42,106 nt of DNA, taken from positions 1 to 42,106 of the IMG/VR virus record IMGVR_UViG_3300032770_000046; one strand, given 5' to 3'. The position numbers were made by a program, and so were the translations under genes. This DNA is from a virus. Shown here in pieces: positions 26,191 to 42,106 of this stretch. Each line of letters opens with the position of its first letter. The first letter of the stretch is position 1. The notes under the pieces are model-generated. The model made no database searches and had not been told where the DNA came from. It worked only from the letters and a program-made list of their open reading frames with translations.

Positions 26191-27933
26191 CTACGCCAGA
26201 CCGTTGCCGTTCGCAACGGGGGGATGCTCGCCATGGGCGCGCTTGGAGGCGATCTGGGCGAGCTTGATCTTCTGTTCTTCCTGGGCTTCCTTGGCCTCGG
26301 CCGGCTCGATCTTCTCGCGCAGCTTCTTCTTCAGCGCCGCGCGCATCGGCACATCGATAAGATCCAGCAGTTCCTCCCGGTCGATGACCTTGTGATCCAG
26401 GAGTGCAAAGGCTTTCTGTTCGTAGTTCTCCGCGAAGATCGGGCTGGACGAGTGCCCATCGACCTTCGCCTCGTAGTCATCGGTGAACTGCGCGGCGTGG
26501 AAGACGGCCCCTTCTTCTGATTCCTCGCGCATCGGCCGCTCATCGTACTTCTTCAATATCTCCACCATCAGGCACGCGCAATCATCCAGCGCGTCCTCGA
26601 TCACGAGCGAACGGTCGCGGATGCGTGCGGAGCCCAAGTTCGACATCGTGGAGGCCTGCGCGTTGGAGCGCACGCCGTGGGCGGACTTGCCCTGGTTGAT
26701 CGCGGTGAGGCCGGAGAGGTCATCGAACATCGCATCCAACTGCTCGATGTCGTGCCACAGATCCGATGGCAGATCCGGCACCACTCTTTTGAAGTCTGCG
26801 GCCGGTGAGTCCACCGTGCCCAAGCCGCCCGGCGTGTCCAGCGCGATGGCGAGCTCATCCCCCGGGGCGTTGGTGCCCGTGATGAGAGATGGCGGGTGCG
26901 CCTGCTTTCGCAGGATATGGATGATGTCGCCCATGCGCTCGTTGCGCAGGTCCTGCAGCGGCACCAGCTTTTCGACCTCGCTGTGCCCCCAGAAATAGTC
27001 GTACGTCGGGTTCATGCACACCTCCACATAGGGCAGGTGATGCGGCAGGAAGATATCGCCGAGCGGGCGGTCCCAGATCGGGATGGTGGGGTTCACGTAG
27101 GTGATGACGCGAAAATCCGCAATCGCATCATCGTAGACATAGAGCTCATGCCCCTGGATCAGATTCTCGCGCGTGGTCGGTCGGTAGAGCGTGGACAGCG
27201 GCATCGAGAACATTCCGGCATTGCCGGTGACGGCATCGCCTTGCACTGCGGTCACGATCAGCCGATCAACAGGCGTCGCATCGGCGAGCACGTCATCCTT
27301 GTGGCCACCCTGCACCTGAGTCATGATCGAATCGACTTCGGCCTCCTTCTTCCCTCCCGAGATCAGGTTGTTGCGCAGCTCGGACTTTGAGATGTGGAAG
27401 GTTTCGCAAAACGCTTCCTGACGCTCAAGGCCATCCTTGTCCTCGCGCAGCACGCCGAAGTTGTGCGGCTCAACAATGAAAGCCTGTATTTTAAGCCCTT
27501 TCTCCAACTCCTTCTTTTCGTTGATGCGCTTGAACACCTTGGGGCGAAACTTCAAGAGCACCTTGCCGTACGGCGCGCTCCAGCGCAGCGCCTGCTTGAA
27601 CTGCTGATCGATCTGCGCATCGTGCCACTCGTGATGCAGCCGGTCCGTCAGCGCTGGTACCTTGTCCTGTTCCTTCTCAGACACCGACGCGCCAATCGCG
27701 ATAGTGAAGCGGGTGGTCTCGGCTGAGAACATGAAGGACTGCACGGTCTCCACGTGCGGGAAGATTTTGTTGAAGCGCGTTTGCTGATTAAGCGCGCGAT
27801 CCTCGCACCCGAACAAGTAGTACGAGCGCATCTGCTTGTAGAACTCGCGCCGCGATTCAGTGGTGCTTGTGCACTTGTTGATCAGTTCGCAGAATAACTG
27901 ATGGCGCTCGGCGGAGTCCTTGGGAATTTGCAC
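26191..27933 (-). CDS. Portal protein
   Basis: A 580-residue protein, next but one after the terminase. Typical portal features: N-terminal charged helices (residues 1-50), the central SEVEKLVPLQDLRNERMGDI region, a long helix region DDLSGLTAINQGKSAHGVRS, and a charged C-terminal helix (AALKKKLREKIEPAEAKEAQ). Portals form the dodecameric DNA gate at one capsid vertex. Length suits podovirus-type portals. Well supported by synteny and overall pattern. Confidence 0.85.
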   Translation of the reverse strand: MQIPKDSAERHQLFCELINKCTSTTESRREFYKQMRSYYLFGCEDRALNQQTRFNKIFPHVETVQSFMFSAETTRFTIAIGASVSEKEQDKVPALTDRLHHEWHDAQIDQQFKQALRWSAPYGKVLLKFRPKVFKRINEKKELEKGLKIQAFIVEPHNFGVLREDKDGLERQEAFCETFHISKSELRNNLISGGKKEAEVDSIMTQVQGGHKDDVLADATPVDRLIVTAVQGDAVTGNAGMFSMPLSTLYRPTTRENLIQGHELYVYDDAIADFRVITYVNPTIPIWDRPLGDIFLPHHLPYVEVCMNPTYDYFWGHSEVEKLVPLQDLRNERMGDIIHILRKQAHPPSLITGTNAPGDELAIALDTPGGLGTVDSPAADFKRVVPDLPSDLWHDIEQLDAMFDDLSGLTAINQGKSAHGVRSNAQASTMSNLGSARIRDRSLVIEDALDDCACLMVEILKKYDERPMREESEEGAVFHAAQFTDDYEAKVDGHSSSPIFAENYEQKAFALLDHKVIDREELLDLIDVPMRAALKKKLREKIEPAEAKEAQEEQKIKLAQIASKRAHGEHPPVANGNGLA

Positions 27934-27954
27934 GTCAAATATCCTGTCGCCGGG

Positions 27955-28446
27955 CTACTTCTTCGGCGCGACGAACCGCGTGGCCTTCTGCAAGTACGAC
28001 TGCGATCCTGAGCGGATGTGTTCGATGGGGATGCGCGTCTCGATGTCACGGTTGCCCACGCGCTGCAAGGGCGGCAGCAGTTTCATCGCCGCGGGGTTGA
28101 TCGATGGTGCTGCCTCACCGCGCCCCACCCATCCCTGCGGCACCAGGTCCGGCTTCCAGTAGGGCCGCCCTGAGTCTGCCGGCAATCGCGCGCCGCCGGA
28201 GGATACAGGCGTGTTCGACATGACAGAGCTTCCCTCCTTGTCGCCGCGCACATCGGTCATGTTGTAGTCTGAAGCCAACTGCCGGCGAATGTTGTCGGTG
28301 GCGCGGGTCACATCGGATTTGAAGCCAGGGGCGGTGCGGAACTCGCGGCGGACCTGAGTGGGGCTGCAGCCATACGGGCAGTGCGGCTCGAAGTCCTCGA
28401 ACTCATGGTCGTGAAACAAACACCGCCATTCTTTCAGCACACCCAC
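27955..28446 (-). CDS. Protein between terminase and portal, putative zinc-binding
   Basis: A 163-residue protein. N-terminus (WRCLFHDHEFEDFEPHCPYG, then Cys27) has a C-x-x-x-H ... H-C-x-x-x-C cluster that could be a small zinc ribbon. The rest is Arg/Pro-rich with a basic helix and an ending QKATRFVAPKK. Always-adjacent genes of this kind in podoviruses have no known function to me. 3 nt from the terminase end. Confidence 0.55.
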   Translation of the reverse strand: MGVLKEWRCLFHDHEFEDFEPHCPYGCSPTQVRREFRTAPGFKSDVTRATDNIRRQLASDYNMTDVRGDKEGSSVMSNTPVSSGGARLPADSGRPYWKPDLVPQGWVGRGEAAPSINPAAMKLLPPLQRVGNRDIETRIPIEHIRSGSQSYLQKATRFVAPKK

Positions 28447-28449
28447 AGG

Positions 28450-30285
28450 TCACCTCCGTTGCTGCGGAATATACGCCCGCACGCCCTGGTTTGGCATCTG
28501 CGGCTTCGGCAGCACCCCGTAGGCTTGCAGGTACGACCTGACCGAGCGCCCAAGCACGGTGTCGGGCGGGGTCTCCCGCTCGATTCTCTGTTCAGGGGGC
28601 ACCCACACGACATTCTGGGCGATGAGCTTCATGCGAAGCTGGTCATTCCACGCTTTCACCGCCAAGGCGGAAGCGATCACCCGGTCATCCTTGGCATCCC
28701 CCTGGGCCGCAATGCTCCCGCCGTCGCGGATGATGGTCTTCATCTCATCAAGCAGATAGCGGCTGTGCGGGGTGAAAATACCGCGCTCGAAGTTGTCCTT
28801 GAGCAGCCCCATGTAGGTTTCTTTGATGCGCTCGGTGGTGAGCGTGTGCTTGCCCATGGGGCGGCCAGAGATCGAGTCCTCGCGCGCGTACAGGAACTCG
28901 GACATGTTCTTGACGACATCGCGCATGGTTTTGGCCTGCCCCGGGATGATCGAGCGGCCGGACATGCGCCGCAGATTGTCGATTTCCTGGATGACCGCGG
29001 TGCCGGAGCCGTTGATCTCGATGTTGTAGAGGCACGGCCGGTAGGCGCCGGCGAGATATACGATGAGCCACGCGAAGGTATACGGGGACAGATCCACCGT
29101 GCAGAACTCGGCGACCTGTTCAAGCCGGTTCGCGTACGCGCGCAGCACCGTGGCGCAGAACCGATCCGCACCATCCGAGGACCCGTAGGCCGGATCAGCG
29201 CCCAGCACGTAATAGGCGCCGGCCTGCGGTTCCTCCCACACCCTCAAGGTCGCCACCCGATCGTTCACATCGATCAGTGTCGTGTCGGTGAACTCCGCTC
29301 CGAACTGCAGCCTAAAGGACTGGTTCTTAGGTTCCCCGAGTACCCGACGATAGGCCTCCGACATCGACTGGCCCGTGAAGTACTTGCTACCGGTGGCCAC
29401 AAACGCTTCATCCGGTAAAGTGGGGTACTCAGCAAACATGGCCATCTCATCGGTCACCTTCTCCGCCCGGATCCAGCGGTACCAGGCCAACTGCTCATCG
29501 TCCAGGTCGAAGTCGTACTCCTTCTTCACCCGCTTCACCCAGTCGCGCTCCTGCTCGGTGGCCCGGCCCTTCAGCCCCCAGTACTGGCGCCACACGCGCG
29601 AGCCGCGCGCCACACGGTAGTTCTCGTTGTGCCACCAGGAGATGAACACGGCGCGGATGGTGACGGCCTGCTTGGCTTCCTCCCACATCTCGTTGAAGGC
29701 GTTGAACCCGTTGGCGGTGGACTCCCAGGCGAAAAATCGCATCGGGTTCTTCTCCGCCATCGCAGCCTTCAGGCTGTGGATCTGCTCCGGGTCCCCCCAG
29801 TAAGCGGTCTCGGTCATGTGCCCGAAGGACACGGCGGACGAGCGCCCGAGTGCCTTGCTGGAGGTCTCCTTCAGCCCGGCCACCTTGTACTGCAGCATCG
29901 ACCCGTTGCCCAGCACCAGCTGGTTCCGGTTGTGCTGCACGATCGGCTGCTGCCACTCCCCGGGCAGGCCCTCGTAGTACATCTCGAGCAGCGCCCGGAA
30001 TTGCTCGCGCGATGGCTCATCGTGGGTGACGATGACCCCCGGGGTGCCGGGGTAGTTGAAGGCGTAGTACATGTCCCAGGCGAGCAGCGCCGTGGACACC
30101 CCGAGCTGCCGGGCCTTCAGGATGACGAACTCGTGCACATCCTCGGCCAGGCCCATCTGGATCTGCTCGAACAGTCGTCGCTGGGTACCAAGGAGGCTGG
30201 GCCCGAGCGCGATTCGTCCGCGCTCCTTGGAGTTGATCTTGAGCGCGCCCAGGAACTGGGCGAAGTGGGTGAAATCGACCGCCAT
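28450..30285 (-). CDS. terL: Terminase large subunit
   Basis: A 611-residue packaging motor. ATPase: Walker A-type KARQLGVST at 57-65; Walker B-like AVSFGHMTETAYW with Glu159; coupling motif ESTANG at 188-193. Nuclease (RNase H-like): GADPAYG with Asp364, NIEINGSG with Glu423, and the Asp533-Asp534 pair in KDDRVIASA. All parts are complete. It cuts concatemeric DNA and drives it into the prohead through the portal. Confidence 0.95.
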   Translation of the reverse strand: MAVDFTHFAQFLGALKINSKERGRIALGPSLLGTQRRLFEQIQMGLAEDVHEFVILKARQLGVSTALLAWDMYYAFNYPGTPGVIVTHDEPSREQFRALLEMYYEGLPGEWQQPIVQHNRNQLVLGNGSMLQYKVAGLKETSSKALGRSSAVSFGHMTETAYWGDPEQIHSLKAAMAEKNPMRFFAWESTANGFNAFNEMWEEAKQAVTIRAVFISWWHNENYRVARGSRVWRQYWGLKGRATEQERDWVKRVKKEYDFDLDDEQLAWYRWIRAEKVTDEMAMFAEYPTLPDEAFVATGSKYFTGQSMSEAYRRVLGEPKNQSFRLQFGAEFTDTTLIDVNDRVATLRVWEEPQAGAYYVLGADPAYGSSDGADRFCATVLRAYANRLEQVAEFCTVDLSPYTFAWLIVYLAGAYRPCLYNIEINGSGTAVIQEIDNLRRMSGRSIIPGQAKTMRDVVKNMSEFLYAREDSISGRPMGKHTLTTERIKETYMGLLKDNFERGIFTPHSRYLLDEMKTIIRDGGSIAAQGDAKDDRVIASALAVKAWNDQLRMKLIAQNVVWVPPEQRIERETPPDTVLGRSVRSYLQAYGVLPKPQMPNQGVRAYIPQQRR

Positions 30286-30288
30286 GAC

Positions 30289-30579
30289 CTACCGGCCCGG
30301 CGGGCGGGCTCCTTGCATGGGACGCTGGGGCTGCTGGCCGGCAGACTGACCCTGCTGCGGCGCCGGCGGCAGTAGCGTGCGCACCGCCTGCACCTTCTTC
30401 AGCTCCGCCTTCAGCTGCTTTTCCTTCGCGTCCAGCTGCGCATGCAACTGGGCCGGGTTCATCTTCCCGCGGCCCTGAGCGCCAGGTCTACCCGGCTGTT
30501 GCGGGCTCCACGGCATCGCCGCTCGCTGCGGCTGTCCCTGTCCCATCCACGGCTGGCGTGGCAACGGTGGCATCGGCAT
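30289..30579 (-). CDS. Pro/Gln-rich small protein before terminase
   Basis: A 96-residue protein: N-terminal Met/Pro/Gln/Arg-rich stretch, a central Lys/Leu/Glu coiled coil (residues about 40-65, NPAQLHAQLDAKEKQLKAEL), and a Pro/Gln/Arg-rich tail. GGAGA lies 6 nt before ATG 30579, supporting a 92-nt overlap with the upstream gene in another frame. Coiled coil beside TerL makes it a small-terminase candidate, but no HTH is seen. Confidence 0.5.
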   Translation of the reverse strand: MPMPPLPRQPWMGQGQPQRAAMPWSPQQPGRPGAQGRGKMNPAQLHAQLDAKEKQLKAELKKVQAVRTLLPPAPQQGQSAGQQPQRPMQGARPPGR

Positions 30580-30781
30580 TGCTGTCTCCGGGTAGGGCGG
30601 CGCGCGCCAGGCTCATCAGGTGGTTGCCGAAGGCGGCCGCCTCGGCTGGGTCGAGCACTAGCTCCTTGCCGAGCATTCGCACCCGCACCTTGGTCAAATT
30701 CGTCCCCGCCTCGTGCAGGCAGGCCTTCAGGTGGTGAGACACGCTGGCCTGGGTCGCGTCGAACTCATGCAGGCTCGTCAT
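30488..30781 (-). CDS. Small protein before terminase, possible small-terminase role
   Basis: A 97-residue protein with an N-terminal helical region (ATQASVSHHLKACLHEAGTN) and a strand-helix part (RVRMLGKELVLDPAEAAAFG), then an Ala/Thr/Gly-rich tail. GAGG is 5 nt from the ATG, which overlaps the upstream stop (ATGA). Position immediately upstream of the terminase region suggests packaging. The tail is read together with the overlapping gene. Confidence 0.5.
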   Translation of the reverse strand: MTSLHEFDATQASVSHHLKACLHEAGTNLTKVRVRMLGKELVLDPAEAAAFGNHLMSLARAALPGDSNADATVATPAVDGTGTAAASGDAVEPATAG

Positions 30782-30894
30782 GTGTGCCTCGCGTGGTAGC
30801 CGTCTTTGCTCTTGTGGAACCGCGCCGCGCGCTTTCGCTGCGCCTTGCCGATCCCCCGGCCCGTGTCGCGCTTGGATCTTCGACCTCGTGACAT
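30778..30894 (-). CDS. 38-residue highly basic protein
   Basis: Starts MSRGRRSKRDTGRGIGKAQR; 14 Lys/Arg and 3 His among 38 residues. AGGAGGG lies just upstream of the ATG, and the TGA overlaps the next ATG (ATGA), so it looks real. Its charge and place in the packaging operon suggest DNA binding. No fold recognised. Similar in style to the 11-residue peptide at 26049. Confidence 0.55.
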   Translation of the reverse strand: MSRGRRSKRDTGRGIGKAQRKRAARFHKSKDGYHARHT

Positions 30895-30920
30895 ACGCCC
30901 TCCTACATCGTGCGACCCTA

Positions 30921-31367
30921 TCACGACACGGTGGGGGTTGCCACAGCCTTGCTCGCCGCGGCCGGCCCCAGGCTCACCGTCAGCTTCACGATCGTTCCGG
31001 ACTGCACGCTTGACCCCGCCGTCACCGACTGCGCCGTGACCGTTCCCTCCTTGCTCGAGCTCACCACCCAGGTCAGCCGGTCAACCGAGAGTGACACCGC
31101 CTGCAGCGCAGAGTAAGCATTCTGTACGAACAGCCCCACGCAGTTCGGGCACGTCACGTTCCCAATCGCCGTCGCAGGTCCCGCCGAAACCTGAAAACTC
31201 ACCAGCGCCTGCTGCGTCCCCGGCACCACCTGCGTCCCGGCCGCCGGGCTCTGACTCCCCGGGATGATCGACCCCGCCGCCACCGTGTTCGAGGGCGTGT
31301 ACAGCACCACCGGCACCAATCCTGCCTGGATGATCGCCTGCGTCGCCTGCGCCACCGTGAGCGTCAC
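30921..31367 (-). CDS. PASTA-domain-like protein
   Basis: A 148-residue protein with two PASTA-like units: about 1-63 (MTLTVAQATQAIIQAGLVPV, ending VSFQVSAG) and about 69-136 (CPNCVGLFVQNAYSALQAVS, ending LTVSLG), each with the helix, the G-x-V-x-x-Q-x-x-AG turn and the closing strand. PASTA domains of bacterial kinases and penicillin-binding proteins bind cell-wall material. No signal peptide here. GTG start overlaps the stop of a 27-residue membrane peptide. Virion or cell-wall contact is possible. Confidence 0.65.
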   Translation of the reverse strand: MTLTVAQATQAIIQAGLVPVVLYTPSNTVAAGSIIPGSQSPAAGTQVVPGTQQALVSFQVSAGPATAIGNVTCPNCVGLFVQNAYSALQAVSLSVDRLTWVVSSSKEGTVTAQSVTAGSSVQSGTIVKLTVSLGPAAASKAVATPTVS

Positions 31368-31447
31368 GGGTCCGTCCCGTACAGCATGTCATCGACCCAC
31401 ACCCACACCGCCAGCACCACCAAAATCACGCCCAGTACGGTCGCCAT
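31364..31447 (-). CDS. 27-residue membrane micro-protein coupled to the PASTA gene
   Basis: ATG lies 1 nt after the HNH stop; TGA overlaps the PASTA GTG (GTGA). Nearly the whole peptide is a hydrophobic span (MATVLGVILVVLAVWVWV) with an acidic tail. Because PASTA domains usually sit behind one membrane span, this could be its separated anchor, translated by coupling. No frameshift-prone sequence is obvious at the junction. Confidence 0.5.
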   Translation of the reverse strand: MATVLGVILVVLAVWVWVDDMLYGTDP

Positions 31448-31448
31448 C

Positions 31449-31820
31449 TCAATACCTCATGCTATTGCCCAGCCTCAGATTGCAGATCGGCGCCAGGAGT
31501 CTGAGATTCTCCTTGCGATGCTCCCCGCCGCGGCTCAACGGCCGCCGATGATCCACATGATACTCCCACCTCACCACCCGCCCACACCCGCACGCGCACC
31601 GCCACCCCTGCGCCTCCCCAATCGCCTCAATGTCCCTCTGCGTCACCCGCTCAGGCCTCCCCCCCACCATCCTCTGCCTCCGAATCGCCCGGTCCCGCAC
31701 CTTCTGCGCACGCCGACACTGCCGGCATTCCGACCTCAACCGCCCAGACCCAGCCTTCACAAACCACCCCAGCGGCCGCACCTCGCCACACCGACTGCAC
31801 TTCTTCTGGGTCGCCTCCAT
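31449..31820 (-). CDS. HNH endonuclease next to terminase
   Basis: A 123-residue protein. N-terminal zinc ribbon (Cys8, Cys11, Cys32, Cys35) and C-terminal HNH: CACGC around 75-79, catalytic HVDHRRPLSRGG (88-99), then NLRLLAPICN with Cys113-Asn114. HNH proteins just upstream of terminase are known to assist DNA cleavage in several tailed phages, notably cos types (HK97 gp74). ATG at 31820 is preceded by a short CCCC/GGGG hairpin and a poor ribosome site; upstream in-frame codons look non-coding. Confidence 0.82.
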   Translation of the reverse strand: MEATQKKCSRCGEVRPLGWFVKAGSGRLRSECRQCRRAQKVRDRAIRRQRMVGGRPERVTQRDIEAIGEAQGWRCACGCGRVVRWEYHVDHRRPLSRGGEHRKENLRLLAPICNLRLGNSMRY

Positions 31821-31944
31821 CCCCGAAATTGTGGGGAGGGGGACGGGGAAATGCCAAAAAATCTTTGGGGAAGGGGCGAGATGAGTCCCCAAGACTTTCA
31901 CTTCGCCGACCCAATGGCCAAGGTTAGGTTCAGCGCGCATGATC

Positions 31945-32149
31945 GCAGCGCAACACGACATATTGCACGATTTAACTTAATGGTTATTATGCGAATGGTG
32001 CAGCGCACTTACCAATCATTTCAACGAGTTGCGCGAGGCCTAAGTGGCCCACCTGGAGATTATTGCGAACTCGGGCCCGGAAAACTGTACGCCAGCTTAC
32101 AACTAGCTTACAAACACAGTGCAGCATCGGGCTAATTGTTGCAGCGCAC
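31945..32149. repeat. Three dispersed GCAGCGCA repeats
   Basis: GCAGCGCA at 31945-31952, and GCAGCGCAC at 32000-32008 and 32141-32149, all in the same orientation. The second and third share 11 nt (TGCAGCGCACT). Such dispersed short repeats upstream of the packaging genes could be protein-binding sites for terminase or a regulator. Confidence 0.5.
32094..32113. repeat. 11-nt-period direct repeat pair (AGCTTACAA)
   Basis: AGCTTACAA at 32094-32102 and again at 32105-32113, one helical turn apart. The core CTTACA recurs in a second pair at 32223-32242. Spacing of one turn places both sites on the same DNA face, as for cooperative protein binding. Confidence 0.55.
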
Positions 32150-32166
32150 TAGGCGGCACTAGGCGG
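32147..32166. repeat. Tandem 10-nt repeat CACTAGGCGG
   Basis: Two exact copies of CACTAGGCGG end to end. The second copy runs into the left arm of the hairpin at 32160-32181, so the first copy could compete for pairing with the right arm. Possible iteron or operator half-sites. Confidence 0.5.
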
Positions 32167-32181
32167 CAAAAGTGCCGCCTA
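32160..32181. promoter_or_regulatory. Perfect 9-bp inverted repeat
   Basis: TAGGCGGCA pairs with TGCCGCCTA across a 4-nt AAAG spacer. No T-run follows on either strand, so it is not an intrinsic terminator. More likely a protein-binding palindrome or an origin-type hairpin. Confidence 0.5.
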
Positions 32182-32222
32182 ACTCATCGCCCTACATTTC
32201 TGCGTATATGTCTTACCATTAA

Positions 32223-32242
32223 ACCTTACAGCTACCTTACAG
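32223..32242. repeat. 11-nt-period direct repeat pair (ACCTTACAG)
   Basis: ACCTTACAG at 32223-32231 and 32234-32242, again one helical turn apart and sharing the CTTACA core with the pair at 32094-32113. CTTAC also occurs singly at 32008 and 32212. It lies about 100 nt before the start at 32348 and may be an operator. Confidence 0.55.
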
Positions 32243-32347
32243 AACAACTGTGCTTAGTGATATTTCATGCCTATAGTGTACTACTGTACTATTTATATTA
32301 TATACAGTAACTTAGGATAAGACGCCATAGGCGCTAGGGGAATGCTC

Positions 32348-32704
32348 ATGATTAAGCTTGAACGGCTGGCTTTCTTGCGTGGCAAACGGGTGCTACACAG
32401 GGTGCTGTGGGCCGCTGGGGACTGGTGGTACGAGGAATGGTTTGAGCACGCTGGTGATGCGCGGGACAAGTTCAATCAACAGGACGTAGCCGGAGTGCGC
32501 GCGGTGCTCTCGCTGGACACGCCAGGCGATTGCATTGCCGCGATCCGCATGAAGTCCATTGCCCGCAAGAACCGGCGCGACGCGGGGGTAATGCCGGTGA
32601 CCTGGGGCGAGTTGCAGCAATTGAACGCCGGCAGGGGCCTTGACCCGCGCGATGTGGTCAGTTACGCTCATCATCATCATTCAAGCCCAGGAGGGCACCC
32701 ATGA
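32348..32704 (+). CDS. First gene of the rightward operon, unknown
   Basis: A 118-residue protein starting at the ATG with AGGGGA 6 nt upstream (32336-32341); the ATG at 32342 is too close to that site. Helical, basic and Trp-rich N-terminus (RVLHRVLWAAGDWWYEEWFE), a probable DNA/RNA-binding middle (AAIRMKSIARKNRRD) and a His-run near the end (YAHHHHSS). Being first after the control region it may be an early regulator. No family recognised. Confidence 0.6.
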   Translation: MIKLERLAFLRGKRVLHRVLWAAGDWWYEEWFEHAGDARDKFNQQDVAGVRAVLSLDTPGDCIAAIRMKSIARKNRRDAGVMPVTWGELQQLNAGRGLDPRDVVSYAHHHHSSPGGHP

Positions 32705-32886
32705 CAGTCAAATTCGGCATCCTGTACTGGGGCGACACCCGCTCGGTCGCGCAGCACCAGGCTTATGAGGCCATTGAACAGGCGCGCTGGCGCTGGCGTG
32801 TCGCCAGGAACGAAGCGCGGCGGGCCGCGGCGGCGGCACAACCGAAAGGGTGGCTGCCGGCCTTCCTTCGCAGGCAGGCGCTGTGA
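32701..32886 (+). CDS. Small Arg/Ala-rich protein, unknown
   Basis: A 61-residue protein starting inside the previous stop (ATGA at 32701-32704). Strongly helical and basic (QARWRWRVARNEARRAAAAA). Coupled to the following membrane micro-gene. Unknown function; the charge suggests nucleic-acid binding. Confidence 0.5.
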   Translation: MTVKFGILYWGDTRSVAQHQAYEAIEQARWRWRVARNEARRAAAAAQPKGWLPAFLRRQAL

Positions 32887-32954
32887 TCAGCGTGTGGGCG
32901 GCGCTGTTCGTGCTCGCGCTACTGGTGCTCATGCTGTGGCAGCGCCGGCCGTGA
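32883..32954 (+). CDS. 23-residue membrane micro-protein
   Basis: GTG start overlapping the previous TGA and TGA overlapping the next GTG. Almost all residues form one hydrophobic span (VWAALFVLALLVLMLW) followed by QRRP, giving a positive-inside end. The double overlap is the main support. Could be a tiny membrane toxin, a regulator, or just a spacer peptide that carries coupling. Confidence 0.45.
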   Translation: MISVWAALFVLALLVLMLWQRRP

Positions 32955-33196
32955 ACTTCGTGAAGCCAGATCCCGAGACCACCCGCATCAGCGAGTGCGG
33001 TCGGTTCGTGATTGTGCGGCACAACACGGATTCCGGGCCGGCTTACGTCCTGTGGCACTACCAATTGGCCCAGACAGGCTTTCAGAGCGCATTAGACGCC
33101 CAGCGTGCCGCGCAGAGGATTTACGACGGGTACGATAGCCTGGAGGACTGGACCGCTCAGAAGCCTTCAGGTTCGGTTACAGACGGCGTATCGTAA
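32951..33196 (+). CDS. Small protein, unknown function
   Basis: An 81-residue protein with a GTG start overlapping the previous stop (GTGA). It looks like a single compact domain: FVIVRHNTDSGPAYVLWHYQ strands, then a helix with QSALDAQRAAQRIYDGYDSL. It ends 2 nt before the convergent primase gene. No family recognised. Confidence 0.55.
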   Translation: MNFVKPDPETTRISECGRFVIVRHNTDSGPAYVLWHYQLAQTGFQSALDAQRAAQRIYDGYDSLEDWTAQKPSGSVTDGVS

Positions 33197-33198
33197 AA

Positions 33199-35190
33199 TC
33201 AGAAGCCTTCTAAATCGCTTGAGGATGGAGGTTGATCACTGACGCCCGGATCCGCTCGGTGCTCGCTTGGGGCGCGCCACCCGCGGATTTGCTCCCCATT
33301 GACGCTGCGCTTGGTCGGAATCCACCCTAGGCCGCGCAAAATGCTCCTGACCCTGACCATCATAGGCTGAGTCCACAAATGCCGCGGCACCTCGCATACG
33401 TCAACGTACAGATCCTCAAGCCGCACGAATTCCTTGGTGCGCAGGTAAAAAGCCACGCTCTCGTGCCAAGCATCGCGCATCAGCCTCTCGGATTGCTCAG
33501 CCTTCGCTTGCTCAGCTGGTATGTCCCACCACTGTCCGCCTTCCTCAAAGATCACCGCCGCTTCGGCGAATAACTGCTCACGATTGGCGCTGATCCAGTC
33601 CAAATCGATGTTGCCGCAGCGCACCGGCAGGAATCTGCGGGCGCCGGTTTCATCCGCGTTCCAGTCGTCCTTGTTGGTCGTGGCCGCGAATACGCACATG
33701 CGTGGGTGCGTGGAGGGCAGCCGCTCAAACGGTGCCCGGTAACGGTCCTCGCGGCGGGTGATGACGGCTTTGGCTGTCTCTAGGGCGACGCCCTTTAGTT
33801 GCGCCATCTCGGAGAGCTCGAGAATCCACTTGCCCGCCATGCACAGGTAGAAATCCCGATCGCCTAATCGATATGTCGGCTCGTCATGCCATTCCAAGCC
33901 CGCAAGCACCCGTAACGCCGAGGTTTTCCCGATCCCCTGGCCCCCCTCGAACACCGGAAGGCTATCGACTTGGCACCCAGGCTTGAGGATCCGCGCGACG
34001 GCCCCGACGATGAACGATCGCGATACGGCGCGACTGTACGAGTCCAGTTGCACGCCCCAGCCTTTGGCCAGAAGCTGCTCGACGCGTTGTACCCCGTCCC
34101 ACTTCAGTTGGGTGAGCCAATCGCGCACCGGGTTCACTGTGTGCATCCGTGCGTGCCTGATCACCGCATCGTGAACAATGTGCTTCTGGACTTTCGGCAT
34201 GCCGAGGTTCGCCTGCAAAAAGCACTGCAGGGTGATCGTATCCGCGTCCTCCCACGTGCGCGCACCGGCAGCGGCTGCGGTCATGATCCTCACCGCGAAC
34301 TCGTCGTACCAGATCCGCCCGAAGGACTCCCCGTCATGGAGCTTCGCCAGCACCCGACACACGTTCTCGGTGTTCTCCCACGGGTAGCCGGAGTTCTTCA
34401 GCGCAAGGCCCCAGTGACGCCAACCATCGGTTTGGCTGTCGCCTTGGGGCGGGGTGGGTGACTGAGGCTTAGGCGCCGCCCGCGCTTTGCCTTTGGACTT
34501 GGGGAACTCCACCACGGTCGGCGGCGGCTGGGTGACCTCCTGCAGGTTCTCCTGAATGAAATCCTTAACTTGCTCGTAGGTCCAGCCGCTTTCCAGCGCG
34601 TCCGCCACATCCCAGTGCTCGGGGTGTGTTCCACGTGGAACATTGACCACCGCCACCTTGCAATTGAGCGACAGCAGCCGGGCGCACAGGATCGCCATGG
34701 CGTTGCGGCCTACATCGTCATTGTCCGGCCACACGATGACCCTGCGCCCCGCCACCGCCTCCCATTGGGCGTGCTTGATGCTGCCCGTGCCGCCCCAGCT
34801 GCTGACCACGACGGTGTCATGCCCTGCCGCAGTGAGAGCCGCCTGCCAGGCATCGGCGCATTTTTCACCCTCCACCACGTGCACCTTGGCTTGGGCGCGC
34901 TGCTGGAGCAGCTCGAGGTGATACAGCGGGGTCGGCTGGGCGGGCCCGCGGGAAACCCAAGTGGCCTTCTCGGCCGACCACACCCACGGGCGATAGGTTT
35001 TGCCGCCCGCCTCGCCATCCTCGGGCGCCGGCGCGGTTTGGTACCGGCATTGGTAAAACAGCCGCCCCTCAAGATCCTGGTACAGCCAGGTCGCGGTCGG
35101 TGCGCCCAAGCGTCGGTCGATGCCGCTGAACACCGCTGAGGGCGGCGGACGGTCAATGCCGCCAGCGACGGCATCCGGTGTAGCGTTCAT
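33199..35190 (-). CDS. Primase-helicase: TOPRIM plus VirE-type P-loop ATPase
   Basis: A 663-residue replication protein. TOPRIM-like primase part: VVEGEKCADA (105-114) and WPDNDD (154-159). Helicase part at about 360-600: Walker A GGQGIGKT (416-423), Walker B-like WILELSE (455-461), then VITRREDRYRAPFERLPSTH and FAATTNKDDWNADETGARRF, the signature of the virulence-associated E (VapE-like) family. No amino-terminal zinc finger is evident. It would unwind and prime the phage origin, recruiting the host polymerase. Transcribed minus, towards the plus-strand small genes. Confidence 0.88.
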   Translation of the reverse strand: MNATPDAVAGGIDRPPPSAVFSGIDRRLGAPTATWLYQDLEGRLFYQCRYQTAPAPEDGEAGGKTYRPWVWSAEKATWVSRGPAQPTPLYHLELLQQRAQAKVHVVEGEKCADAWQAALTAAGHDTVVVSSWGGTGSIKHAQWEAVAGRRVIVWPDNDDVGRNAMAILCARLLSLNCKVAVVNVPRGTHPEHWDVADALESGWTYEQVKDFIQENLQEVTQPPPTVVEFPKSKGKARAAPKPQSPTPPQGDSQTDGWRHWGLALKNSGYPWENTENVCRVLAKLHDGESFGRIWYDEFAVRIMTAAAAGARTWEDADTITLQCFLQANLGMPKVQKHIVHDAVIRHARMHTVNPVRDWLTQLKWDGVQRVEQLLAKGWGVQLDSYSRAVSRSFIVGAVARILKPGCQVDSLPVFEGGQGIGKTSALRVLAGLEWHDEPTYRLGDRDFYLCMAGKWILELSEMAQLKGVALETAKAVITRREDRYRAPFERLPSTHPRMCVFAATTNKDDWNADETGARRFLPVRCGNIDLDWISANREQLFAEAAVIFEEGGQWWDIPAEQAKAEQSERLMRDAWHESVAFYLRTKEFVRLEDLYVDVCEVPRHLWTQPMMVRVRSILRGLGWIPTKRSVNGEQIRGWRAPSEHRADPGVSDQPPSSSDLEGF

Positions 35191-35193
35191 GCG

Positions 35194-35541
35194 CTACAGC
35201 GTCAGGATTGTGCGGGCTTGTTCGACTGAGCGCGCGATTCCTGCCAAGCCACCAAGGGATGAGACGGTATCGATGAATGATTGTTGCTCACGTGTGGCCC
35301 GTCCCCGTTGGCTTTTGACTTCGACCGCGGCGAATACAGCTAGGCGTCGTCCTACATCGTGTGAAGTTATAATGACACTTGACAGCCCGATCAAGTCCGA
35401 GCTTCCGACACACAGCCCATAGTGTATCCAGCGATGCGGAGGCACAATATCTTGTGTGCGGCCGACGTTGTTGCGCCACAGACGCGCGTCGCCGCGCGAG
35501 CACGCGAGCTGAATCTCGCGCAGGAGTTTGGTTTCGCTCAT
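35194..35541 (-). CDS. VRR-NUC domain nuclease
   Basis: A 115-residue protein with the VRR-NUC pattern: GSSDLIGLS (Asp), then FAAVEVKSQRGRATREQQSF with the catalytic E-x-K and the conserved Gln, and LGGLAGIARS near the end. These single-domain PD-(D/E)XK-like enzymes are Holliday-junction or structure-specific nucleases in phage replication modules. Its start overlaps the small upstream gene. Confidence 0.85.
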   Translation of the reverse strand: MSETKLLREIQLACSRGDARLWRNNVGRTQDIVPPHRWIHYGLCVGSSDLIGLSSVIITSHDVGRRLAVFAAVEVKSQRGRATREQQSFIDTVSSLGGLAGIARSVEQARTILTL

Positions 35542-35714
35542 GGTCGCTGCTGGGTTCGCGCTTCGGCGATTCTGCGCTGGATCAGGGCATCGATAGCTTC
35601 TGCCAGCGCCTTCGCTTCTATCGTTTCAGAGCACTCGTAGTAGCGCGACACAAAAGTGCTTCCCTCGCCGCCAAGTGCATTCACCAAGGCGTCAAACTCA
35701 GGTCCTCTGCTCAC
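35538..35714 (-). CDS. 58-residue protein between nuclease and helicase
   Basis: GTG start overlapping the helicase stop (GTGA at 35711-35714); TGA overlaps the nuclease ATG (ATGA). Mainly helical (ETIEAKALAEAIDALIQRRI). Both overlaps support translation. Could be an accessory of the replication complex. No family recognised. Confidence 0.55.
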   Translation of the reverse strand: MSRGPEFDALVNALGGEGSTFVSRYYECSETIEAKALAEAIDALIQRRIAEARTQQRP

Positions 35715-37108
35715 GCCCGCCCCTTTGCCCTTCTGGCTTCAAAAACATGTCGAGCCCACCCTTCCGGGTTCTTCATGCCGCGCATGCGGCCGATGGCCAC
35801 CAGCCCCTCGATGCTGCGCGTCATGCCTTGCGTTTTCCTCTGCCGCTTGAGGATGAGTTCTTCGACCGTGGGCTCTTTGAATTCTTCGAGCTCGCCCTCT
35901 TTTTCCACAACCGTGCGAGGTCTGGTCGCAAATCGGTGGCCGCACGATCCACAGACCATAACCCGAGCGGCGTTCGCTGTGAAACACTGCGGGCAGACTC
36001 GAACGCTATCGACAGGCTTGCGTGCGTGAGGTACCTCATCCACCCCAGATAGGCTCCACGATCGAGTCTGTGTAGGTAGTCCGAATCGGTGGCAGTTGCC
36101 GGCGTGATCGAAAAGGATAGATACGGACTTGCCTTCAAACGGCCGCAGAATTCGACCCGTTTGTTGAAGAAAGAGCCCAAGGGATTGAGTGGGACGAAGC
36201 GAGATACCCACCTCGATCGCCGGGAGGTCGAATCCTTCTGAGATAAGCTCGCACGACGTAAGAACCTGGAGCCGTCCGGTGCGAAAATCACTGACGAGGT
36301 TGCGCCGGATGGCGGGGTCGAGGGTGCCGTCGATGCAGTCTGCGCTAAAGCCAGCAGCTCGGAATCCAGCTGCGCGCTCCTTTGCTGCTGCAATCGAGAC
36401 ATCAAAGACGACTGCGCGGCGGCCAGGCGTGAGTCTGCGGTAATGATCGATAGCGTCTCCGGTGACACTGGGTCGATTGGCTGCAGCAGCGACCTCACCT
36501 GAAATGTACTCACCGAATCGGGTGTGCAGGTCAGCAGTCGAGATAGTCGGCGGCGCGTAGACTTTGCAGGCCGTGAGGTATCCGCCATTGGTCAGTTCCT
36601 CGTATGTCGGGCCTTCAATGAGTTCGTCGAAGAAGTCGGCGAGTCCTTCTCCCGAGAGCCGTAGGGGCGACGCTGTAACTCCAAGACGCCGCGCTTGAGG
36701 GTAGTGGGCGAGAATGCGGCCCCAAGTCGTCGAAGCTGCCGTATGGTGCGCCTCATCGATGATAAAGAGATCCGGGCAAAAGCAATCCAGTCGCTTCGCA
36801 AGAGTGAACACCGAAGCGACGTACACCTGATGCCCATGCACGAATGGGTAGGCGGATGCGATATAGCCATGTGGAACATCCTGGGCGGTCAGAGCCGCTG
36901 AGATTTGGTCGATGAGTTCGGCGCGGTGGCAGAGAATGAGCACCTTGCGGCCCTTCTCTGCGGCTCCCCGGCAGATGGCGGCGAAGGTGACCGTTTTCCC
37001 CCCACCACATGGGAGCACGTACAGCACGCTTCGGATGCCGCGTTTGTAAGCGAATCTGATCTTGTCAAGGGCATCGAGTTGGTAGGGGCGGAGGGAGATG
37101 CTTGACAT
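35711..37108 (-). CDS. SF2 DEAH helicase with C-terminal zinc ribbon
   Basis: A 465-residue protein. Start taken at MSSISLRPYQ, the usual opening of these enzymes (Q-type motif RPYQ); a further upstream ATG (37228) would lie inside the divergent region. Motif I LPCGGGKT at 32-39, DEAH 118-121, motif III-type TASPLRL, motif VI QQTGRILRP. A CPQC ... CGSC zinc ribbon lies at about 372-389. Resembles RecG/XPB-like type III or phage repair helicases. It likely serves fork or recombination steps with the YqaJ/RecT pair encoded across the promoter region. Confidence 0.88.
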   Translation of the reverse strand: MSSISLRPYQLDALDKIRFAYKRGIRSVLYVLPCGGGKTVTFAAICRGAAEKGRKVLILCHRAELIDQISAALTAQDVPHGYIASAYPFVHGHQVYVASVFTLAKRLDCFCPDLFIIDEAHHTAASTTWGRILAHYPQARRLGVTASPLRLSGEGLADFFDELIEGPTYEELTNGGYLTACKVYAPPTISTADLHTRFGEYISGEVAAAANRPSVTGDAIDHYRRLTPGRRAVVFDVSIAAAKERAAGFRAAGFSADCIDGTLDPAIRRNLVSDFRTGRLQVLTSCELISEGFDLPAIEVGISLRPTQSLGLFLQQTGRILRPFEGKSVSILFDHAGNCHRFGLPTQTRSWSLSGVDEVPHARKPVDSVRVCPQCFTANAARVMVCGSCGHRFATRPRTVVEKEGELEEFKEPTVEELILKRQRKTQGMTRSIEGLVAIGRMRGMKNPEGWARHVFEARRAKGRA

Positions 37109-37160
37109 GATGACGTGATGATGATTAGATTGCAAGCACAGTCTAACACACCGAGCCACC
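37109..37160. promoter_or_regulatory. Short divergent promoter region with imperfect palindrome
   Basis: A 52-nt gap between the divergent helicase and exonuclease genes. An inverted repeat TTAGATT (37125-37131) and AGTCTAA (37140-37146) pairs 6 of 7 bases around 8 nt. Such a site can hold an operator that controls both directions. No strong -35/-10 pair is evident. Confidence 0.45.
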
Positions 37161-38114
37161 ATGACAATCACCACGTTCGACACCGAAGCGCAGTGGCTGG
37201 CCGCCCGCCACCAGCGCATCAACTCCACTGAAGTCGCTGCGCTCTTTGGGCTTGGCTCCTATGCCACGGCCTTCGAGATCGCGGTGGAGAAGCAGCAGCC
37301 GGCGCCGTCCGGGTTCCACGAATCAATTCGCATGCGCTGGGGCAAGCGCCTTCAGGATGCGATTGCGCAGGGCGTGGCGGATGACTACGGGGTCATCATT
37401 GAGTCGATGGATCTGGTATACGGCGAGCACCCGAAGGCCCGGCTGGGCTCATCGTTCGACTACAAGATCCTCAACACCAGCGAAGTGCGCGATCAGATCA
37501 TCGCGACCATGCTGGATCGGCACGGGGCTGGGATCCTTGAAATCAAAAACGTCGATGGCCTGCAGTTCGCCCGCAACTGGTTGGACGGCGAGGCGCCGCC
37601 ACAGATTGAGATTCAGCTGCAGACCCAGCTCGAAGTGCTGGACCTTTCCTGGGGCTGCATTGCGGCATTCATCGGCGGCAACCGCATCGAGACCATCATC
37701 CGCGAGCGGGATCGCAAGGTCGGCGAGGCCATCGTGCAGCGCGTCAATGAGTTCTGGGCCAATTTGGAGCGAGGGATCTTGCCGCCGCCCGTCATGCCAG
37801 AGGATGCCGACACGATCATCAAGCTCTACCAATACGCGGAGCCTGAGAAAGTCTACAACGGGGCGGACGATGCGGAACTGGCCGAGCTGTGCAAGTGCTA
37901 CGCCGCCGCAAGCGAGAATGAGCGCGGATGCGCGGAAGCCAAGAAGGTGCTGAAGGCCAAGATCCTGCAGCACATCGGATCCGCAGAGCGCGCGGTGCTA
38001 CCGGGGTTCAAGGTCTCGGCCGGCATGGTCGCGGAGGCGGCGATGGCGTACACCAGGCCGGCTTATCGAAACTTTCGAGTAACCGAGGTGAGGCCGAAGG
38101 ACGGGAAGCCATGA
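37161..38114 (+). CDS. YqaJ-type phage exonuclease
   Basis: A 317-residue protein. N-terminal QRINSTEVAALFGLGSYATA matches the YqaJ start. Catalytic parts: Asp100 in LGSSFDYKI, Glu127 and Lys129 in LEIKN, and the QIEIQLQTQLEVL region. Degrades 5' strands to make 3' overhangs for the annealing protein two genes downstream. Together they form a recombination pair like lambda Exo/Bet. Coupled to the next gene by an ATGA overlap. Confidence 0.9.
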   Translation: MTITTFDTEAQWLAARHQRINSTEVAALFGLGSYATAFEIAVEKQQPAPSGFHESIRMRWGKRLQDAIAQGVADDYGVIIESMDLVYGEHPKARLGSSFDYKILNTSEVRDQIIATMLDRHGAGILEIKNVDGLQFARNWLDGEAPPQIEIQLQTQLEVLDLSWGCIAAFIGGNRIETIIRERDRKVGEAIVQRVNEFWANLERGILPPPVMPEDADTIIKLYQYAEPEKVYNGADDAELAELCKCYAAASENERGCAEAKKVLKAKILQHIGSAERAVLPGFKVSAGMVAEAAMAYTRPAYRNFRVTEVRPKDGKP

Positions 38115-38305
38115 GTTTGTGGACTTGGATTAAGCCGAAGCGCCAGCCCTATGAAGTGCCGCGAATCGTGTGTCAGCGTCATCAGTCCACTGGTCTGTGG
38201 TGGAATATAGACCGAAGCGGGATTCCGGTTGCCGCTGGGCCCATTTGTCCAGACTGCCTAATTGAATTGGTGCAACAGCATACGAAGGATACGAATCATG
38301 ACTGA
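38111..38305 (+). CDS. Small protein between exonuclease and annealing protein
   Basis: A 64-residue protein starting at the ATG that overlaps the exonuclease stop. It has Cys21 and a CPDC at 46-49, with Trp/His/Arg in the N-terminal half; a small zinc-binding fold is possible. It overlaps the RecT-like gene start by 8 nt. No family recognised. Confidence 0.55.
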   Translation: MSLWTWIKPKRQPYEVPRIVCQRHQSTGLWWNIDRSGIPVAAGPICPDCLIELVQQHTKDTNHD

Positions 38306-39164
38306 CCCGAAGACCGCAGATCCAAAGTCGGAGCCGAAAAGCTCCGTCATGATCATCGAGAACACCCTGCGCCGAGGCGAGATGCAGGATGTGATCAAGA
38401 AGTCACTAGGCGAGGGGGTGTCGCTCGATAAGTTCACGCAAGCCGCCATCACCGCCATCAAGCACAAGCCTGAGATTTTCGAGGACTGCGACCGCGCGAG
38501 CATTTACAACGCACTGGTCGAGGCCGCGCGAGATGGGCTGATCCCGGATGGGAAGCAGGGCGCGCTGGTGCCCTTCAGGGCGAAGTCAGGCAATAACTGG
38601 ATCAAGAGGTGCCAGTGGCTGCTGATGCCGGCCGGAATCCTGGACAAACTCGCCAAGCTCGGTGTGACGGCCTATGCGGTGTCGGTCTACGCCAACGATG
38701 ACATCAGCATCTGGTTCGACGACGAAGGCCAGCACGTCAAGCATGAGCCGGTGATCTTCGGAGATCGCGGCGAGCGGGTCGGCGCCTATGCCTGCGGCCG
38801 GACGAAGCAGGGCGTCACTTACGTTGAGGCGATGAACATGGAGGACATCGACCGGGTGATGGCGGTGTCCAAGCAGAAAAACGACAAGGGAGAGATGTAC
38901 GGGCCGTGGGTAGAATGGCCCGAGCGGATGGCCGAGAAGTCCTGCCTGCATCGGCTGTGCAAGCGCATGCCGAACGTAGAGATCGCCGACGATCCGGAGT
39001 TTCGCGAGGCCGACCCAGGCCCCGGCATCACCGTCCTGCCGCGCGAGTCGGTGCCAACGATCCAGACAGGCCGTCCCAAGGCCTTGCAGGCGGTGGTGGA
39101 TGCCACGCCCCAGACGCCCGTCGAGCCTGAGCCGCCCGACCAGCCCGCCTCGGAGATATTCTGA
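38298..39164 (+). CDS. RecT-like single-strand annealing protein
   Basis: A 288-residue protein. Pattern of RecT: a helix (residues 45-60), EAARDGLIPDGKQGALVPFR (75-94), then KSGNNWIKRCQWLLMPAGIL and a beta region (VTAYAVSVYANDDISIWFDD), with DRGERVGAYACGRTKQGVTY before the second half. Pairs with the YqaJ exonuclease upstream. The C-terminal 40 residues are Pro/Glu/Thr-rich and disordered, typical of the family. Start at MTDPK; the earlier ATG is inside the previous gene. Confidence 0.88.
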   Translation: MTDPKTADPKSEPKSSVMIIENTLRRGEMQDVIKKSLGEGVSLDKFTQAAITAIKHKPEIFEDCDRASIYNALVEAARDGLIPDGKQGALVPFRAKSGNNWIKRCQWLLMPAGILDKLAKLGVTAYAVSVYANDDISIWFDDEGQHVKHEPVIFGDRGERVGAYACGRTKQGVTYVEAMNMEDIDRVMAVSKQKNDKGEMYGPWVEWPERMAEKSCLHRLCKRMPNVEIADDPEFREADPGPGITVLPRESVPTIQTGRPKALQAVVDATPQTPVEPEPPDQPASEIF

Positions 39165-39894: not shown

Positions 39895-40200
39895 GTGGTT
39901 AATCATCCGAACAGAAGCAAGAAGACAGAGCGCGCAGTTCTAGTGACGACTGAACACCGCGGCGTGTTCTTTGGATATACGAGTGACACGAGCGGTGATG
40001 CCATCGCCCTGCGTGCCGCACGCAACTGCATCTACTGGCCGTCCTCGAACAAGGGGTTTTTAGGGCTCGCCAGTGAGGGCCCTCATAAGGGCGCGCGCGT
40101 GGGCCCTGCGGCCGATATTGAACTGCGCAAGATCACGGCGGTAGCGGCCTGTACGCCAGAAGCGGTGGCGGCTTGGGAGGCAGCGCCGTGGTCGGCGTAA
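39895..40200 (+). CDS. DUF6948-like phage protein
   Basis: A 101-residue protein. GTG start with GGAGA 6 nt upstream. Sequence pattern AVLVTTEHRGVFFGYTSD, ARNCIYWPSSNKGFLGLA, GPAADIELRKITAVAACTPE and WEAAPW matches a small family common in tailed phages (my recall is DUF6948). Function not known to me. Its TAA overlaps the next ATG (TAATG). Confidence 0.7.
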   Translation: MVNHPNRSKKTERAVLVTTEHRGVFFGYTSDTSGDAIALRAARNCIYWPSSNKGFLGLASEGPHKGARVGPAADIELRKITAVAACTPEAVAAWEAAPWSA

Positions 40201-40886
40201 TGCTCCGGGGCGAGCCGCCCGATTGGGCGGCGAGCCGGTACGGGTCCGGGTCCGGGTACGGGTACGGGGACGGGTCCGGGTCCGGGTCCGGGTCCGGGTA
40301 CGGGTACGGGGACGGGTCCGGGTACGGGTACGGGGACGGGTCCGGGTCCGGGTCCGGGTCCGGGTACGGGTACGGGTACGGGGACGGGTCCGGGTCCGGG
40401 TCCGGGTCCGGGTCCGGGTACGGGTACGGGGACGGGTCCGGGTACGGGTCCGGGGACGGGTCCGGGGACGGGTCCGGGTCCGGGTCCGGGTCCGGGTCCG
40501 GGTACGGGTACGGGTACGGGGACGGGTCCGGGGACGCGAAATACTGGCTCTCGACGATCCAGTATTTCGCGAAGAAATGGACTGCGGCACAGCAGGCGCG
40601 GCTGTCGCAGCTCGCGACTGCGGGAGTCAAGCTGGCGTTTTGGAAGTCAGACAAGTCAGGCCGTGCGTGTAATGGCGGCCATCACTCATCGCCCGTACAT
40701 CCAGGGCTGATAGAGAAGATCGCCGGTCCTCTGGAGGTCTGCACGAAGCGTGCGCTGCACGCCACCGAACTGCCGCCGAAGTGGAAAGGCGAGCGCACTT
40801 GGATCGTCGCTCTGCACGGGAAAGTGCAGAAGGACGAGGACAAATACGGCGCGCTTGAACGGGAGATTTTGGGGGAGGCGCTATGA
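40200..40886 (+). CDS. Gly-Ser/Tyr/Asp repeat protein with conserved C-terminal domain
   Basis: A 228-residue protein. ATG chosen by TAATG overlap. Residues 15-112 are 49 Gly-X dipeptides (X is Ser 25, Tyr 15, Asp 9) from a hexanucleotide array. Residues 113-228 are a folded domain: a helix AKYWLSTIQYFAKKW, then an ALHAT box (GPLEVCTKRALHATELPPKW, GERTWIVALHGKV, YGALEREILGE). The box resembles the layout of phage DUF7666-type domains (Cys ... Leu-His-Ala ... Val/Ala-Leu-x-Gly). Function unknown. The array is [Gly/Ser]-Tyr-[Gly/Ser], a composition known to self-associate. Confidence 0.7.
   Translation: MLRGEPPDWAASRYGSGSGYGYGDGSGSGSGSGYGYGDGSGYGYGDGSGSGSGSGYGYGYGDGSGSGSGSGSGYGYGDGSGYGSGDGSGDGSGSGSGSGSGYGYGYGDGSGDAKYWLSTIQYFAKKWTAAQQARLSQLATAGVKLAFWKSDKSGRACNGGHHSSPVHPGLIEKIAGPLEVCTKRALHATELPPKWKGERTWIVALHGKVQKDEDKYGALEREILGEAL
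40242..40535 (+). repeat. 49-copy hexanucleotide array
   Basis: Forty-nine consecutive 6-nt units, each GGG followed by TCC, TAC or GAC. All differences are in the second and third codons' single bases; there is no Gly-codon variation. The units run in order S, then Y, then D: block lengths of S/Y/D are 2/2/1, 4/2/1, 1/2/1, 4/3/1, 5/2/1, then a block S-Y-S-D, S-D, 5/3/1, and S-D. Because units are 6 nt, gains and losses keep the reading frame. Confidence 0.9.
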
Positions 40887-41748: not shown

Positions 41749-42106
41749 ATGAAGTTCGAGATCAAGAACCGCTTCTCAGGCGCTGTGCAGTTTGAGTGTG
41801 AACTCACGGCCGAGATTGCCGAGAAGTCCTATTCCGTGCGCCTTGGCTTCGCCGTGAAGAAGGCGATTGAAGCGCGCGCCGACCTCGAGGACGCCTACCT
41901 CGCGCGCGCCGACCTCGAGGACGCCTACCTCGCGCGCGCCGACCTCGCGCGCGCCAACCTCGAGGACGCCTACCTCGCGGGCGCCTACCTCGCGGGCGCC
42001 TACCTCGCGGACGCCAACCTCGCGGGCGCCAACCTCGCGGGCGCCTACCTCGCGGACGCCAACCTCGCGGGCGCCGACCTCGCGGGCGCCGCCCTCGAGG
42101 ACGCCT
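41749..42106 (+). CDS. Pentapeptide-repeat protein, N-terminal part (continues at base 1)
   Basis: The first 119 codons of the gene that continues at base 1. ATG has AAGGAG 6 nt upstream (41737-41742); an in-frame GTG at 41719 is possible but poorly placed. Residues 1-44 form an alpha/beta cap ([20 protein letters not shown]); repeats start at residue 45 (41881). Across the junction there are 22 units of 5 residues with A(D/N/Y/A)L(A/E)(G/D/R). Pentapeptide helices can mimic double-stranded DNA and inhibit DNA-binding enzymes. Any such target here is not known. Confidence 0.85.
41881..42106 (+). repeat. 15-nt tandem repeat array of the pentapeptide gene (left portion)
   Basis: Fifteen consecutive units of 15 nt fill 41881-42105; one more unit is shared with bases 1-14, then six more follow to 104. 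Every unit has CTC and GCC fixed; only codon 1 (GAC, AAC, TAC, GCC), codon 3 (GAG, GCG) and codon 4 (GAC, GGC, CGC) vary. No synonymous changes are seen across the 22 copies. Confidence 0.9.

Follow-up and report, generated by a model that had tools for sequence, protein, structure and literature searches.

Uniform silent sites in a phage pentapeptide-repeat array point to a coding minisatellite under concerted evolution

The window, which here means the whole virus record of 42,106 bp that was analysed, harbors a gene for a 286-aa pentapeptide-repeat protein with an array of 22 units in which not a single synonymous difference is found. The array is very probably a coding minisatellite that evolves in concert by unit turnover and whose surface is under selection. 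Its 15-bp units would be continually duplicated, lost and overwritten by their neighbours by replication slippage, unequal recombination or single-strand annealing, with the phage's own RecE/RecT as a possible source of recombination. Under such concerted evolution silent variants would be either lost or fixed array-wide, so that silent sites would become uniform within an array and different between phages. The outward residues, namely N/D/Y at i-1, A/E at i+1 and G/D/R at i+2, would be kept polymorphic by selection for a mixed surface, and the inward Ala and Leu would be held by the fold.

Units and codons of the array

The array occupies positions 41872-42106 and goes on in register at positions 1-95, the record having no terminal repeat and being opened within the array. 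When the record ends are joined, GAGGACGCCT is followed in frame by ACCTC, which gives one open reading frame from the ATG at 41749, just preceded by the ribosome-binding site AAGGAG, to the stop codon at 501-503. The joining phase would fit by chance in 1 of 15 cases, and relatives in which the gene is uninterrupted have N-terminal cap, array and C-terminal domain in the same order as the joined gene, the parts of which are:

41749-41871, + strand: N-terminal cap (beta-beta-alpha) ending in KKAIE, with its ATG in frame with the array and with homologous caps in relatives
41872-42106, + strand: first part of the pentapeptide array, with units 1-15 and the bulk of unit 16 (codon table; TRF; Pfam PF00805, E 4.7e-34)
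1-95, + strand: array continued over the record ends, rest of unit 16, then units 17-22
96-110, + strand: degenerate last unit AGARN, end of the array
105-503, + strand: linker and C-terminal domain, to the stop codon
195-500, + strand: C-terminal domain of five helices with the invariant motif H-x-C-x2-T-H-C-R-A-G-W (alignment, model, profile searches)

Written in the order i-2 to i+2, each unit consists of GCC, one of GAC, TAC and AAC (7, 8 and 6 units, with GCC once), CTC, either GCG or GAG (17 and 5) and one of GGC, GAC and CGC (10, 7 and 5), which yields eight distinct 15-mers among the 22 units. GCC and CTC are constant throughout, and every amino acid in a given column is encoded by a single codon, for which the odds are about 10^-34 under a null of the phage's own codon frequencies (e.g. 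Leu CTG 44% and CTC 29%, Asp GAC 54%; GC 61%). The codon table over the joined array confirms what had been noticed in the sequence-only reading, that is, 22 units without synonymous differences and, in the frame used there, variation in codons 1, 3 and 4 only with CTC and GCC fixed; the array placed there at 41881-42106 is real, but its start lies at 41872. The block GAG-GAC-GCC-TAC-CTC (EDAYL) is present five times, which is a sign of unit copying.

Record ends and the number of units

The count of 22 units is a result of assembly and may be wrong, and it is considered provisional because the contig was opened inside the array; the finding of zero silent differences is unaffected by this uncertainty. 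Among related contigs 10 kb or longer, far more end in the same gene than expected by chance (17 of 71 against about 1.9), at least five contigs matched by the array pattern have the array at both ends, judging from match positions near the locus ends, and even the isolate records Bp96115 and S.Inf 5-2 end within their array gene. All of this would suit an assembly artefact, namely a repeat collapsed or made chimeric in a metagenome contig. Such an origin of the pattern is nevertheless very unlikely: isolates show the same pattern, among them phage L, which was sequenced with both Illumina and PacBio (PMC8022706), and an artefact could alter the number of units but not the absence of silent differences.

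Predicted structure and the C-terminal domain

The protein scores 116 bits against PF00805 (cut-off 20.2), and its 22 units compare with the at least eight contiguous A(D/N)LXX units by which membership was judged. The AlphaFold2 model of the cap and array (mean pLDDT 97.8) consists of a beta-beta-alpha cap (strands 2-7 and 13-18, helix 28-41) and a pentapeptide beta-helix, so that the rod is predicted with high confidence to be a right-handed quadrilateral beta-helix. Its best natural match in the PDB is NP275, with 0.4 A rmsd over 71 columns and a probability of 1.00, the E-value of 1.6e-3 being just short of 0.001. In the pentapeptide fold A and L point inward and the remaining positions of the unit outward. 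The fixed A and L of the window array are accordingly predicted to face inward and its variable residues outward, and this agrees with the earlier proposal that the varying residues are the exposed ones.

The C-terminal domain is modelled as all-helical (pLDDT 88, pTM 0.82), and nine of its residues, H32, C34, T37, H38, C39, R40, A41, G42 and W43, are invariant across 92 sequences. No Pfam or NCBIfam family was matched by it, apart from one chance NCBIfam match, and neither a fold search nor a sequence search of the PDB returned a match. It matches phage families only, chiefly phrog_31265, which was matched by the domain in all 92 members tested and which also matches the N-terminal cap and array of the window (E 8.9e-47), so the window protein has the phrog_31265 architecture of cap, array and C-terminal domain. 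Weak similarity to phrog_889 and phrog_30739 was also seen, and the domain occurs in phages and in bacterial genomes of several phyla. A tblastn search of phage isolates with the whole joined protein gave no match, probably due to low-complexity filtering of the array.

Silent bases in related arrays

Searched with the C-terminal domain, viral contigs gave 387 matches and genomes 34, and the search with the unit pattern gave 90 viral stretches; blastn with the window led to a Rhizobium phage and from there to arrays of Salmonella, Caulobacter and Edwardsiella phages. Forty-eight arrays were found via the C-terminal domain and hence were not chosen by their array DNA. In 14 of them pS equals zero and in 42 pN exceeds pS.

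Silent sites are uniform within arrays and different between related ones, and each array, to judge from its codons, has fixed silent bases of its own (CTC, CTG or CTT; NNC or NNT). The units of L005 and L101, whose C-terminal domain is 75% identical, read GCG NNT GCC NAC CTC, those of L117 and L118 have GCG NAC CTG with NNC codons at i+2, and L124 has CTT in 22 of 22 units. Among arrays with at least two of G, D and R at i+2, to which this tally was limited, 70 have C and 28 have T as the third base of every i+2 codon, and 14 are mixed. The only silent variant of L124, GCT, is perfectly linked to GAC units, which indicates that silent variants spread with the unit bearing them.

It had also been proposed that silent sites are frozen by strong constraint on the DNA itself, which could be a binding site, a DNA structure, codon-dependent rate or an overlapping frame. 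Silent sites are indeed uniform in the array, and its other reading frames are open as well, though this is because the repeat is stop-free. Since the corresponding codons of relatives carry other silent bases, fixed throughout their units, there is no universal DNA constraint, and the proposal has to be regarded as highly improbable.

Uniform silent sites are not a general property of pentapeptide proteins. Chromosomal control arrays (15 arrays obtained with looser segmentation, one of which, L212, is a relative) have a median pS of 0.79 and pN of 0.55, and the arrays of mycobacteriophages Goku and Rakim have pS of 0.53-0.57 and constant length. A fixed unit order with many synonymous changes, named at the outset as the observation that would speak against rapid change of the array, does occur, but in other proteins, namely mycobacteriophage and chromosomal pentapeptide proteins. 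The arrays of L157, L160 and L140, which carry the same C-terminal domain as the window protein, are likewise static with many silent changes, showing that the uniform-silent behaviour is not universal even among arrays with this domain.

Unit turnover among isolates

A 44,696-bp alignment of the Caulobacter phages Jess A and RapA, taken without the array, contains no substitutions and only a few small indels, whereas their arrays have 21 and 28 units, respectively, in a different order. Both arrays are made up of three unit types identical at the DNA level and one shared terminal unit, and the array of BL94 is built from the same three types. The genomes of ST64T and phage L are more than 99.9% identical and differ by the loss of one 15-bp unit, a difference already reported for a gene of the early left operon (PMC8022706), and Salfasec13b and ST104 have 26 and 21 units between 800 identical flanking bp. 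No near match to ST104 ORF19 was found among E. coli genomes. In isolates with identical flanks the arrays differ mainly by whole units and not by scattered point mutation, so the comparison of repeat number and unit order in related phages favors the expansion or conversion among units that the sequence-only reading had put forward. Turnover of units faster than substitution of the flanks is observed in these relatives, the window phage itself being known from one contig.

A single recent expansion from one unit, with too little time for silent change and an otherwise stable array, would account for the small number of unit types in the window and for the lack of silent change in any of them. 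It is unlikely, however, as six amino-acid variants would have had to arise afterwards without any silent one, the same pattern with a shared palette on different silent backgrounds would be needed in dozens of phages, and the isolates show ongoing gain and loss of units. The variation could also be made by targeted mutagenesis, e.g. by a diversity-generating retroelement, and variants are indeed concentrated at few codon positions. This explanation is the least probable of those considered, given that no reverse transcriptase was found in the window record by an RVT_1 search, that the changes are not adenine-specific, that variants move as whole-unit haplotypes (the repeated EDAYL block and the GCT-GAC linkage in L124) and that Jess A and RapA differ by units, not by point changes.

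Selection on the outward surface

Concerted evolution by unit turnover leaves the amino-acid variation to be explained, since homogenisation by itself would be expected to erase outward amino-acid variants and silent variants equally well. The test covered 33 arrays whose C-terminal domains are less than 80% identical and which have on average 7.0 outward and 4.2 silent sites; 222 outward amino-acid alleles were counted against 67 silent ones, and the excess was present in 31 of the 33 arrays. The test gives P of about 1e-7, a value that overstates the certainty because the residue palettes are partly inherited and the arrays are therefore not fully independent, with the direction of the effect unaffected by this shared ancestry. 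That outward amino-acid variants outlive silent ones points to a mixed outward surface being kept by selection. Unrelated repeats draw on one small set of residues (D, G, R, Y, N and S) for their variable positions, and His (CAC) is rare there despite being one base away from common codons.

Other repeats and partners of the C-terminal domain

A second, unrelated array in the window behaves like the pentapeptide array:

40242-40535, + strand: Gly-X array of 49 dipeptides, in the gene at 40173-40886, with GGG always for Gly and with TCC (25), TAC (15) or GAC (9) for X

It has no silent change, X being Ser, Tyr or Asp, and is followed by a globular domain. Its sole relative, L262, has GGC with TCT, TAT or GAT, and that contig also ends in the array. 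The weak Pfam match of the Gly-X protein to TrAA12 lies in the repeat and below the cut-off and was attributed to composition.

The C-terminal domain is fused to (Cys-Ser-X)n tripeptide repeats in 21 of 110 loci (L169, L172, L173, L182, L183, L186, L189, L190, L195, L203 and others). In most of these arrays the Ser codon (TCG, TCC or TCT) is nearly or wholly fixed, and the X codons are mainly GAC, GGC, CGC and TAC or a set ending in T. Judged by eye, rarer partners resemble 12-mer repeats in L152 and L161, a helix of hexapeptides in L162 and L166, leucine-rich repeats in L200 and HEAT-like repeats in L170.

Two further loci are worth describing. In L245 (Escherichia phage vB_EcoP_PAS7, OQ921331.1, positions 1062-1565) the strand opposite the array is annotated as a modular polyketide synthase, which is likely to be a misannotated open antisense frame. 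L205 and L206 of Xanthomonas sp. NCPPB 1128 are two gene copies on a single contig, separated by about 37 kb, that agree fully in translated domain and array, and they possibly represent a duplicated prophage segment or an assembly duplication.

Genome context and possible role

Two recombination genes lie 3-5 kb upstream of the array, in a run of + strand genes leading to it:

37161-38114, + strand: RecE-like/YqaJ exonuclease (phrog_434, E 1.7e-49; PF09588)
38262-39164, + strand: RecT single-strand annealing protein (phrog_148, E 3.6e-39; PF03837)

Positions 26191-39164 as a whole encode an SU10-type portal, a terminase, a VapE-like primase-helicase and a ResIII helicase as well as RecE and RecT, and the phage is a tailed phage. 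The exonuclease gene is most similar to those found in Burkholderia phages, among them BcepIL02 and DC1, with 67-69% DNA identity (blastn).

Homologues in Salmonella phages are located in the early left operon, between ral/N and cIII/kil. The protein may be an early-expressed rod whose surface can evolve and whose C-terminal domain acts as an effector in host takeover or counter-defence; this is the most likely role, yet less probable than not. More speculatively still, phages and some bacteria could possess a modular display system made of the HxCxxTHCRAGW domain and interchangeable rods (pentapeptide beta-helix, (CSX)n, hexapeptide, 12-mer and others), whose rapidly evolving surface would be reshuffled unit by unit under selection and dedicated to recognition or to acting as a decoy in the conflict between phage and host.

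The sequence-only reading had suggested gyrase as a possible target, and the array could resemble MfpA and Qnr in being adapted to host DNA gyrase or topoisomerase IV. The fold is the same as theirs, the window array is acidic with 19 acidic and 4 basic residues, and phages are known to encode gyrase inhibitors of other types (PMC10886550). The proposal is nonetheless unsupported and quite unlikely to be correct: curated NCBIfam models of Qnr and MfpA score the window protein at 21-34 bits against cut-offs of 240-500, the C-terminal domain differs from both, and some arrays of relatives are acidic, others neutral or basic. A difference of seven units is tolerated in the otherwise almost identical genomes of Jess A and RapA, which does not fit well with a target of fixed shape. 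The 22 uninterrupted units have no loop of the Qnr or AlbG type, although MfpA itself has no array loop either, so the missing loop does not exclude an MfpA-like role.

Comparison with known systems and significance

PF00805 proteins of solved structure (NP275, HetL, beta1) share with the window protein the A(N/D/Y)LXX units, the predicted beta-helix and the inward A and L. In those chromosomal members that were tested the array is static and silent sites are close to saturation, unlike in the window protein with its uniform silent sites and orphan C-terminal domain. The phrog_31265 family has the same architecture, but it is a family model that says nothing of repeat dynamics or of the other scaffolds. 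MfpA, Qnr and AlbG have the rod fold in common with the window protein and a different C-terminal domain.

Pentapeptide arrays with uniform silent sites are also present in ORF19/orf232 of Lederbergvirus (ST104, ST64T, L), gp21 of Jess A and RapA and EVB67_031 of Rhizobium phage RHph_TM3_3_14B, with fast turnover where relatives can be compared. These proteins differ from that of the window in their C-terminal domains, unit palettes and silent bases; in RHph_TM3_3_14B the cap resembles the window cap and the C-terminal domain is DUF5758.

A parallel in the way of working is the zinc-finger array of eukaryotic PRDM9, an unrelated protein that is likewise a homogenised coding minisatellite with more amino-acid than silent divergence. 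Its unit is 84 bp long, compared with 15 bp here, and it has a known DNA target. The mean dN/dS between PRDM9 units is 2.7 (PMC5120217). The type of mechanism is thus already known from PRDM9-like arrays, and one unit change has been published for phage L; in a search of the literature on phage pentapeptide arrays and concerted evolution, a statement on unit change was found only in that paper (PMC8022706). What is new is the orphan C-terminal domain and a system open to testing.

Found behind several unrelated repeats, this domain is a new target for structure determination. The arrays explain why phage contigs frequently break at the pentapeptide gene. Phage pentapeptide proteins are common yet unexplained, and whole-unit turnover between 44 kb of unsubstituted flanks provides natural ready-made mutants for array function, with the Caulobacter phages making the role of the array directly testable in the laboratory. 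Being reshuffled while the genome stands still, these arrays are among the fastest-changing protein surfaces of phages.
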